From the NCBI GenBank assembly GCA_002401445.1, contig NVTD01000006.1:1-38104 (forward strand): a stretch of DNA of 38,104 nt. Reading direction: 5' to 3'. This DNA is from Candidatus Wolfebacteria bacterium. GTDB lineage: Bacteria; Patescibacteriota; Minisyncoccia; Phycocordibacterales; GCA-2401445. Below the pieces are notes generated by a model. It had not been told where the DNA came from. It did not search any database and saw only the letters and a list, made by a program, of their open reading frames with translations. Position numbers and translations under genes: made by a program. Shown here piece by piece: positions 10,680-12,690 of this stretch. Within the stretch, counting starts at the first letter, position 1; each line of letters begins with the position of its first letter.

Positions 10680-11264
10680 ATGATAGACTCTGTACCCGTC
10701 ATAAATATAGATTACATTTTCTTTCAGATTCATACGTTCGTAGCATCTGTTGGTGATTTTCCTGCATTTTGGAATGCAACAATTTTACCAGTTCTGTATC
10801 CGCTATCATTTATTGTTTCTGTATTTTTTATAACAGTGACTGTATATTCACTTGTGCGATTAACGCAGATGGGAAATATGGATGGGATTATAGAAGAAAA
10901 TAGAGAAATAGAGAAAAAAGCAGTAAGCGATGGCAATACAGATAAAAGATTAAATGAAAGGTGGATTCGTGTAAAAGAATTATCTGCATCACAATCTGAA
11001 TCAGATTGGAGAATGGCAGTTATTGAAGCAGATGGAATGTTAGAGGAGATGATAAATAAGATGGGCTACGATGGAAGTAGTCTGGGAGAAAAAATGAAGC
11101 AAATTGAGAAAAGTGATTTTAACACTATTCAACAAGCCTGGGATGCACATATAGTTCGCAATCAAATTGCTCATGCTGGGATTGAATTCGCGTTGAGTGA
11201 ACGTGAGAAGAATAGAGTGATTGGATTGTATAAAGAAGTTTTTGAAGAGTTTTATTATATCTAG
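10680..11264 (+). CDS. Membrane-anchored protein with HEPN-like C-terminal motif
   Basis: A 194-aa protein of unknown function. A hydrophobic N-terminal part with one strong membrane segment (about 33-60) is followed by a charged helical cytoplasmic domain. Near residue 160 the sequence HIVRNQIAHAGIEF has the R-x4-H pattern found in HEPN domains, some of which are RNases. This is only a motif-level resemblance, and the helical context fits but does not prove it. The -10 box 7 nt before the ATG supports the start. It is the last gene before the non-coding locus around tRNA-fMet. Confidence 0.7.
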   Translation: MIDSVPVINIDYIFFQIHTFVASVGDFPAFWNATILPVLYPLSFIVSVFFITVTVYSLVRLTQMGNMDGIIEENREIEKKAVSDGNTDKRLNERWIRVKELSASQSESDWRMAVIEADGMLEEMINKMGYDGSSLGEKMKQIEKSDFNTIQQAWDAHIVRNQIAHAGIEFALSEREKNRVIGLYKEVFEEFYYI

Positions 11265-11293
11265 TCAGAGCGAGTGTACTCGATGAATTTCTT

Positions 11294-11474
11294 AGAGCCC
11301 ATCCACGATCTCATGTCGTGCTGAAATTGTCGAAATTTTTAGTGAAAATTGTGACTTTTGATGAAGCAATGTGGACATTGTTGAAGAAAAAGACGCAATT
11401 TAGAGCAAACATTTCGTGATTTCAGTCGACAAATTTTGTTTTTGTTTGATTTGGTGAGATCGTGGATGGGCTCT
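11294..11474. repeat. Palindromic RNA-like element, copy A (about 181 nt)
   Basis: The ends form a perfect 19-bp inverted pair (GAGCCCATCCACGATCTCA at 11295-11313 with its complement at 11455-11473). Inside, further arms pair in order: TGTCG/CGACA, CTGAAAT/ATTTCAG, CGAAAT/ATTTCG, then AAATTGTG/CGCAATTT and an apical CAATG-tgga-CATTG hairpin. A bulge of about 22 nt remains on the 3' side. Copy B inside the tRNA intron aligns along its length, with paired compensating changes. No open frame fits. It could be a structured RNA or a MITE-like palindromic element. Confidence 0.8.
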
Positions 11475-11492
11475 TGGTTGCTTCGGACGCTC

Positions 11493-11682
11493 AAGTTCTC
11501 ACTGTATATTCTAATACACCTCGAACTTCATTCAAGTACATTCGCTCTTTAATAGTTTTTATTAACGACGTAGAGCGAGAGAAATACAAAAGCAAAGCTT
11601 TTGTATTTCCGAGCCGAGGAGTTAATATAGGGTCAATACCCCGATGCTTTGCATCGAGGATCCTTTATATGCAGTTTGCATA
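11493..11682. other. Run of five consecutive hairpins, no gene
   Basis: This stretch between element A and the tRNA-fMet promoter holds no credible ORF but folds into successive stems. They are AAGTTC..TGTAT/ATACA..GAACTT (11493-11528); TCGCTCT+TTAAT / ATTAA..AGAGCGA (11542-11578); a perfect 13-bp stem with AAA loop (11581-11609); CGATGC-ttt-GCATCG with flanking CC/GG (11639-11659); and TATGCA-gtt-TGCATA (11668-11682). Three of the five have exactly 3-nt loops. It could be a structured RNA or nested palindromic repeats. Function unknown. Confidence 0.6.
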
Positions 11683-11704
11683 GATCGTATACTTACGGTA
11701 CTAT
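11676..11704 (+). promoter_or_regulatory. Promoter of tRNA-fMet
   Basis: -35 TTGCAT (11676-11681), 17-nt spacer, -10 TACTAT (11699-11704). Transcription would start near 11711, giving a 5' leader of about 28 nt for RNase P to remove. Confidence 0.6.
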
Positions 11705-11770
11705 TGCTAAGTCTTTTTAATCAAGGATATAGTTATACCGCGGGGTAGAGGAGAGGTACCTCGGGAGGCT

Positions 11771-12168
11771 CAATTGGGCTCGTAAGGCAGTAATGCTTTA
11801 TGGAATACTCGTCAAACTCGGTGAAACCTTATCCACCAGGTGGTGGATTGGCAATACCGAGCCAAGCTTATTCAAGTTGAATATGAAGGTGTAGAGACTA
11901 GACGGCGAGCATCCACACGTGGTGGATGAAGGTATAGTCCAGACCACAAATCTACGAGGAACCAGTCCACAATCTCATGTCTCTCTGGAATTATCGAAAT
12001 TTTTGCTACACAGTATATATTTTGACGAATCAATGTAAAAACATTGGTTAGGAAAAATAGATTTTGTGTAGTGAAAATTTCGTGATTCTCAGTAGACAAG
12101 CGATGTTAGTTCATTGCGCTGAGATTGTAGACGGGTTCTAAGAGAGCAACGAAAGTTGTAGCGGTATG
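11771..12168 (+). ncRNA. Group I self-splicing intron in the tRNA-fMet anticodon loop
   Basis: A 398-nt intron inserted after U33, directly before the CAU anticodon. P1 is visible: exon GGCU plus intron C pairs with GGGCU (11776-11780) across an AAUU loop, with a U-G wobble at the 5' splice site. The last intron base is G (12168), as required. Core pairings: P4 CTCGGT/ACCGAG (11817-11822 / 11856-11861), P5 ATCCACC/GGTGGAT (11831-11837 / 11842-11848), P7 GACTA/TAGTC (11896-11900 / 11935-11939) and P8 CATCCAC/GTGGATG (11910-11916 / 11922-11928). The stretch AAGGTGTAGAGACTAGACGG resembles the core of cyanobacterial tRNA introns (subgroup IC3). A GAAA-capped stem (GCAAC/GTTGT) lies near the 3' end. 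No homing endonuclease is encoded. Element B sits in the 3' peripheral region. Confidence 0.92.
11959..12138. repeat. Palindromic RNA-like element, copy B, inside the intron (about 180 nt)
   Basis: It has the same architecture and length as copy A. Outer arms are GAACCAGTCCACAATCTCA (11959-11977) with TGAGATTGTAGACGGGTTC (12120-12138), 17 of 19 positions paired. The inner arms are TGTCT/AGACA, CTG+GAAT/ATTC+CAG, CGAAAT/ATTTCG, CTACACA/TGTGTAG, TATTTT/AAAAATA and an apical CAATG/CATTG. Several differences from copy A are compensating pairs (for example GAGCC/GGCTC to GAACC/GGTTC, and TGTCG/CGACA to TGTCT/AGACA). Without it the intron would be about 218 nt, close to a minimal tRNA intron, so it looks like an insertion or added peripheral domain. 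Confidence 0.8.
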
Positions 12169-12190
12169 CATAACCTCCAGACCCTGGTTC

Positions 12191-12212
12191 AATTCCAGGC
12201 CCCGCAACCATT
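12191..12212 (+). repeat. Left direct repeat (attL-like; tRNA-fMet 3' end)
   Basis: A 22-bp repeat unit beginning AATTCCAGGCCCCGC and ending with the CCA plus TT. It overlaps the T-loop, acceptor strand and CCA of tRNA-fMet. The bases before it (C at 12190, T at 12660) differ, which fixes its left edge. Confidence 0.85.
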
Positions 12213-12414: not shown

Positions 12415-12690
12415 ATGTACTATGTCTATCTTATATTGTGCACCGATGAAAGTATCTATACTGGAATGACTAGTGACCCCGAGAGAAGGTTTATTGAACA
12501 TGTGCAAAAAAGTGGTGGAAGATACACAAAACTGCATAAACCTATTCAAATGAAGAGGGTAGAGGAATTTGGTACAAAATTAGATGCATTAAGGCGCGAG
12601 CGACAGATTAAGGGATGGAGAAGGGAGAAGAAGTTAAATCTAATTAAGTTTGGTCACCCTAATTCCAGGCCCCGCAACCATTATATATAA
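12415..12690 (+). CDS. GIY-YIG nuclease, UPF0213-type (cassette gene)
   Basis: A 91-aa single-domain GIY-YIG protein. Visible motifs are the paired YVYLILCTDESIYTG (GIY-YIG), RRFIEH with the conserved arginine, and the catalytic glutamate in ALRRERQIKGW. By family these are small metal-dependent endonucleases of uncertain biological substrate. The last residues (PNSRPRNHYI) come from the copied tRNA-fMet 3' end, so the stop codon lies outside the cassette repeat. Its own -10 box and a strong terminator frame it. Given the flanking repeats it may be the recombination or homing nuclease of the cassette (inference). Confidence 0.85.
   Translation: MYYVYLILCTDESIYTGMTSDPERRFIEHVQKSGGRYTKLHKPIQMKRVEEFGTKLDALRRERQIKGWRREKKLNLIKFGHPNSRPRNHYI
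12661..12682 (+). repeat. Right direct repeat (attR-like)
   Basis: Exact 22-bp copy of 12191-12212. It encodes the C-terminus of the GIY-YIG protein and is followed within 8 nt by a terminator that may once have served tRNA-fMet directly. Confidence 0.85.

Follow-up and report, generated by a model that had tools for sequence, protein, structure and literature searches.

The window analysed here, a stretch of 38,104 nucleotides from Candidatus Wolfebacteria, contains twin palindromic elements of about 180 nt, copies A and B, and raises the question of whether their common fold is the product of selection acting on RNA structure or marks a hairpin-type mobile element. The initial annotation, which left both readings open, had claimed that the two elements share the same arms, that three paired differences between them keep the stems (GAGCC/GGCTC, ACGATC/GATCGT and TGTCG/CGACA), that an unpaired GAYGAA is conserved, that one copy lies inside a ribozyme and the other outside, and that no named RNA family is involved. 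All of these claims held: both elements are present at the intervals given in Table 1, with the lengths and arms attributed to them; all three paired differences are present; GAYGAA reads GATGAA in copy A and GACGAA in copy B; copy B starts immediately 3' of the Rfam match and is within the intron; and no Rfam (Rfam 15) family matches the element at the gathering threshold, the sub-threshold matches being unrelated microRNA hairpins. The annotation identified neither the transposon family nor the intron hosting copy B as that of a tRNA-fMet gene.

Copy A is 181 nt and copy B 180-182 nt long, and at this length (181 nt) the MITE, as we identify the element below, contains no transposase ORF. 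Both folds are far more stable than those of dinucleotide shuffles (z = -10.3 for copy A and z = -12.8 for copy B), with 0/200 shuffles as stable.

Table 1 Features of the two elements and of the interrupted tRNA gene, in coordinates of the window.
Feature	Coordinates	Strand	Remarks
Copy A, complete MITE, intergenic	11294..11474	+	CM R1 157 bits; 30 nt 3' of ORF 10680-11264
Copy A left terminal inverted repeat GAGCCCATCCACGATCT	11295..11311	+	TTA at 11292-11294 directly 5'; IS1031-type on comparison
Copy A long inner hairpin P2	11314..11431	+	by folding
Copy A motif 2, 5' side AGTGAAAA (consensus AGCGAAAA)	11341..11348	+	partner UUUAGAGC at 11399-11406 (consensus UUUGCAGC)
Copy A motif 1, 5' side GATGAA (tandem G-A)	11360..11365	+	partner UGAAGA at 11382-11387; middle pair covaries
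Copy A 3' single-stranded bulge	11432..11454	+	separates inner hairpin from outer stem; other copies have a weak P3 here
Copy A right terminal inverted repeat	11457..11473	+	next bases, TTG (11474-11476), duplicate TTA imperfectly
tRNA-fMet 5' exon	11739..11772	+	interrupted gene; junction uncertain by ~2 nt
Group I intron core, RF00028	11761..11958	+	62.3 bits vs gathering 50; match starts in 5' exon region
Copy B flanks	GAG 11956-11958; TAA 12139-12141	+	duplication not intact
Copy B, complete MITE within group I intron	11959..12138	+	variable region just 5' of GAAA-capped terminal hairpin
Copy B left terminal inverted repeat GAACCAGTCCACAATCT	11959..11975	+	
Copy B motif 1, 5' side GACGAA	12024..12029	+	partner UUAGGA at 12048-12053
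Copy B right terminal inverted repeat AGATTGTAGACGGGTTC	12122..12138	+	
tRNA-fMet 3' exon	12169..12210	+	starts at ~12169

When the Candidatus Wolfebacteria genome (1.12 Mb) was searched with a covariance model built from 18 copies (BLAST alone was run too), 26 distinct loci were identified; two of the Wolfebacteria copies (C3, C15) are ~96-nt versions in which the apical hairpin is lost. MITE matches were also found in 14/60 genomes of the same order, and a model of the order-level set matched the inner hairpin in 41/380 sampled Patescibacteria genomes, other classes included; copy number per genome varies from 1 to about 26. The initial annotation would have been refuted by an absence of further copies or by a simple local duplication, and neither is the case. 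Identity between copies A and B is 68.4%, lower than that of copy A to L011 (79.6%) or of copy B to L015 (83.2%); since each has closer relatives elsewhere and about 26 copies occur genome-wide, the two are separate insertions of one family. These searches cover drawn, not exhaustive, samples of genomes, with stricter filters in the large searches and only rough CM E-values. Hosts named for a subfamily pattern, Candidatus Taylorbacteria and other Parcubacteria MAGs, are represented by metagenome assemblies, and the Wolfebacteria assembly is fragmented (62 contigs). Copy A had no match in phage and plasmid records, nor did the subfamily pattern in a scan of viral contigs.

Almost all copies (65/67) are located outside ORFs of >= 90 codons, in many cases only tens of bases away from one, and the orientation of the 67 copies relative to upstream or downstream genes is unbiased (28 same/39 opposite and 33 same/34 opposite), so that transcription of the element would require read-through or an internal promoter. 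Given this location outside ORFs without orientation bias, together with the patchy presence among genomes, a tolerated selfish element is a better fit than a host regulator.

Variant forms of the element were observed at several loci. In genome G023, L170, L171, L172 and L175 are 80-bp derivatives in which the terminal repeats, the P2 base and the 3' bulge are kept and the apical hairpin is lost, as it is in L026 and L027 of the Wolfebacteria genome. A second element of ~46 bp, GAGYGNARCGACTAT...GGAAATGCCC, is nested in the MITE with 7-8 bp direct repeats at L014 (~1969-2023, +) and L016 (~2170-2240, -), and a GC-rich hairpin, GCCCGCCCG...CGGGCGGGC, breaks the MITE 3' arm beside motif 2 at L024, L110, L111 and L161, the insertion point being about equal in three different genomes. 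Genome G042 contains larger versions with an extra ~100-nt structured apical insert (L161, L167, L168), a small coiled-coil-like ORF between two inverted MITE copies in a composite-transposon-like arrangement (L168), and a second MITE subfamily of 167 bp (L162, L163, L164, L166), which has similar terminal repeats and a different hairpin, with GCGAAAA/UUUUGCAG-like loops still present and a weak model score.

The ends of the copies, GARCC...GGYTC, identify the transposon family. A 3-bp TTA/TAA duplication was observed in 23/66 copies, compared to 11.9 expected from shuffled flanks (p = 5 × 10−5), with no excess of flank matches of length 2, 4 or 6 and two matches of length 5 vs. 0.2 expected; the phylum-wide set was excluded from these statistics because automatic end-finding is unreliable there. 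In both copies of the window the target duplication is imperfect, and copy B, with flanks GAG vs. TAA, lacks an intact one. The terminal repeat GARCCTGTYYANNATCT is common to the MITE copies and to an autonomous 861-bp IS5-family element in genome G045, which has GAGCCTGTTCACAATCT ends with the same 17-bp repeat and two ORFs, with matches to PF13340 (1.6 × 10−20) and PF01609 (3.3 × 10−32). ISLrh, an 857-bp member of the IS1031 subgroup, has the inverted repeat GAACCTGTCTAGTATCT, TNA sites, 3-bp direct repeats and overlapping orfA/orfB (PMC12016507); the repeat of the Wolfebacteria copies, GAACCTGTCTACAATCT, equals that of ISLrh at 15/17 bases. Based on the terminal repeats, the TTA/TAA duplications, the IS of G045 and the likeness to ISLrh, we are highly confident that these elements are MITEs of the IS1031 subgroup of the IS5 family. 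In addition, recent movement is indicated by a genome of another class (G637), in which near-identical copies occupy unrelated sites and are bordered on either side by TAA or TTA. The evidence for mobility, although indirect and inferred from sequence alone, is thus strong, and mobility is very probable.

The terminal pattern TWAGARCCTGTYYANNATCT bounds elements of ~59 to 380 bp and was found in 46/297 genomes of the order; some of the single matches are taken to be chance occurrences because a reversed-pattern control yields single matches too. Searches of the Wolfebacteria genome with PF01609, PF13359 and the G045 protein did not detect an IS1031-type transposase; the mobilising enzyme could have been lost, could lie outside the 62-contig assembly or could be too diverged. 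Nor was a MITE copy detected in G045, the genome with the autonomous IS. Among other candidate partners, the DDE_Tnp_1 elements of G023 and G042 were rejected, their repeats (ACTTTGAATTACGAAACTC) being unlike the MITE ends, and the only PF13359 find was one truncated gene beside a MITE in G048. No relation to any IS emerged for sites in G000:C24 that carry similar repeats, and integron attC sites were dropped by eye, the ends not conforming to RYYYAAC/GTTRRRY. At L091 (~437-1915, G023), a 492-aa DDE transposase ORF with inverted repeats unlike the MITE ends adjoins two MITE copies.

The ribozyme that hosts copy B is a group I intron that interrupts a tRNA-fMet gene, the only tRNA-fMet found in the Wolfebacteria assembly and one that is missed by ARAGORN. 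Because the 3' exon begins only at ~12169, copy B is located inside this intron. Homologous tRNA-fMet introns were found in G020 and G045 (69.5 and 78.3 bits, respectively), in both cases without the MITE; when aligned to them, copy B occupies a variable P9-side hairpin just before the GAAA-capped terminal hairpin, and the corresponding variable region is too diverged in sequence to define an exact empty site. The intron is likely still to splice with copy B present, since initiator tRNA has to be made, but splicing is inferred. Beyond the gene, 22 bp from the 3' end of tRNA-fMet (12191-12212) recur exactly at 12661-12682, past a GIY-YIG nuclease ORF (12415-12690, PF01541), as if a cassette had been inserted at the tRNA end.

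The interior of the MITE is a bent hairpin of ~120 nt with two internal-loop motifs, enclosed by terminal repeats that vary among genomes. Motif 1 consists of tandem G·A pairs around a covarying base pair, and motif 2 is GCGAAAA/UUUGCAGC. Among the Wolfebacteria copies, stem positions are 4-35% off the consensus, yet 82-100% of pairs are intact. In an order-level alignment of 30 copies from 11 other genomes, made with MAFFT without structure, 96.3% of cells were paired (standard pairs) compared to 82.9% in shuffled controls and at most 45% in slid controls, and both-side changes were observed at 33/52 pairs. One example is the pair of columns 60/85, located between two tandem G-A pairs (GA-S-GAA/UGA-S-GA), which is G-C in 18 copies, C-G in 12 and broken in 0. 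The phylum-level alignment comprises 41 rows, of which 38 are forward matches (26 genomes) and three are weaker reverse-strand or partial ones; it was fitted to the model and so leans to it, and model R2, with its poorer alignment, was left out. Here, compensatory both-side changes occur at 50/52 modelled pairs, and covariation is 0.649 vs. 0.180 in shuffled and at most 0.109 in slid controls. In the 38 forward rows, the loop bases of motif 2 are nearly invariant (G in 38/38, A in 37/38, A in 38/38), and no row breaks the G-C and C-G pairs next to them, whereas the outer stems of the matches differ among lineages (AGACC..., GGAACC..., GAGCCTGTT...). This difference in the outer stems indicates that the interior is older or more constrained than the ends. 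A lack of covariation, which would also have counted against the initial annotation, is not what was found, as the signal exceeds both types of controls (R-scape was not used). Both halves of its proposal are supported: selection on RNA structure by compensatory changes beyond controls, and a hairpin-type mobile element by the IS1031-type ends, TTA/TAA duplications, dispersal and, in one genome, near-identical copies.

We compared G-U with A-C at strand-neutral pairs, where G-U is expected to be more common than A-C if one strand acts as the folded form. G-U exceeded A-C by 4.4x in the Wolfebacteria copies, 1.5x at the order level and 2.8x phylum-wide (the counts are not phylogenetically independent), and did so in 37/38 strand-neutral references. 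With the reservation that the counts are non-independent, selection on the + strand, as RNA or single-stranded DNA, appears likely. The choice between these two is not settled because the order-level excess is weak; a function of the interior as RNA, and not as single-stranded DNA, is an inference, made without transcription or probing data.

The strongest competing explanation is that these are ordinary palindromic MITEs in which compensatory changes result from hairpin-templated quasipalindrome correction during replication, with no selection on the fold. Such correction is known to act on long near-perfect palindromes, and in the order-level set Watson-Crick compensatory changes outnumber G-U and A-C intermediates. 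However, correction should remove internal mismatches, and the GA/GCA loop, the tandem G-A and the 3' bulge persist phylum-wide, these mismatches ranking among the most conserved bases; the excess of G-U over A-C across references also speaks against it. We consider this alternative unlikely. Less probable still is a host-beneficial structured RNA (a regulatory RNA, terminator or mRNA stabiliser) that came by chance to lie in transposon ends: the RNA-like covariation is strong and the copies lie outside ORFs, usually within tens of nucleotides of genes, but their presence is patchy across the order, their number per genome varies widely, their orientation is unbiased, and they are independent insertions rather than fixed loci.

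A further possibility, that the elements are REP-like palindromes mobilised by a transposase of the Y1 type (RAYT/TnpA-REP), draws on the presence of Y1_Tnp genes in 8/8 element-bearing genomes tested, including three in the Wolfebacteria genome, and on the palindromic intergenic character typical of REPs. It is very improbable, given that the terminal repeats match IS1031, that HUH single-strand transposition is not expected to produce their 3-bp duplications and that, of the Wolfebacteria Y1 genes, those on C51 and C47 have no copy on the contig, while 18 kb separate the C14 gene from its closest copy. A local duplication around the tRNA gene would account for two copies within 850 bp; with about 26 copies genome-wide, and with A and B closer to distant copies than to each other, it is refuted.

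We therefore favour, as the likely explanation of the locus, insertions of an IS1031-subgroup MITE whose inner fold is under selection and acts as a folded strand. Under this explanation, copies A and B arose by separate insertion events from a single non-autonomous MITE family, which belongs to the IS1031 subgroup of the IS5 family. Their outer arms of ~17 bp would be recognised in trans by a DDE transposase of that subgroup (the trans action is inferred), with insertion at TWA sites and duplication of 3 bp; ends and duplications are evident from the sequence. The inner ~120 nt do not come from the transposase gene of the single IS identified, and appear to be under selection in transposition-competent lineages, because compensatory changes preserve fold and motifs while the terminal repeats diverge. 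The fold may act as a folded single strand, most likely + strand RNA, in the element's own life cycle, a role that is inferred; candidate functions are protein binding, or ensuring that copies within host transcripts stay folded and do no harm, and the molecular role has not been shown. Such a folded, harmless insert is what copy B would have to be, given its place in a self-splicing intron. A bolder reading, which we offer tentatively and lean slightly against, is that of a phylum-wide selfish RNA, whose interior aids spread or tolerance (for example, by protein binding) and is carried by successive sets of IS1031-type ends; if so, the RNA and not the ends would be the lineage-defining part.

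The usual view of bacterial MITEs is that of decayed insertion sequences with drifting interiors. In the family described here, the bent hairpin and loop bases of a ~120-nt interior are kept phylum-wide while stems and terminal repeats turn over, and selection on a MITE as RNA becomes testable. The interior is also a covariation-supported structure family new to Rfam, with covariance models now available for Patescibacteria, a small-genome phylum, and in copy B a mobile element is apparently tolerated within a self-splicing intron, in the one initiator-tRNA gene that was identified. The open literature that we searched (most subscription journals lie outside it) held nothing relevant on MITEs in Patescibacteria or on structured RNAs of Parcubacteria, and no report of compensatory evolution of a MITE interior across a phylum and differing terminal repeats.

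Compared to the IS1031 subgroup (ISLrh, PMC12016507), the MITE has nearly identical ends and 3-bp TWA duplications, and the 861-bp IS of a relative has the same kind of two-ORF transposase; the MITE differs in having no ORF and an unrelated conserved hairpin as its interior. REP/RAYT and other palindromic repeats are likewise dispersed intergenic hairpins, but the MITE has 3-bp target duplications, IS1031 ends, a length of ~180 nt and a complex interior, and Y1 genes are not adjacent to it. The host of copy B belongs to the bacterial tRNA-fMet group I introns (RF00028), with homologues in G020 and G045; among the three compared, only the Wolfebacteria intron has a MITE in its 3' peripheral region. 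Structured non-coding RNA families (Rfam 15) resemble the interior in covarying structure and conserved loops, although none matches and transcription has not been shown. Other prokaryotic MITEs (PMC10969869; QMITE2 of Coxiella, PMC5896051) are similarly short, non-autonomous, AT-rich, intergenic and multi-copy, with transcripts predicted to form stable stem-loops; the Patescibacteria element differs in the compensatory evolution of its interior fold and in fixed internal-loop motifs maintained phylum-wide, across different ends.
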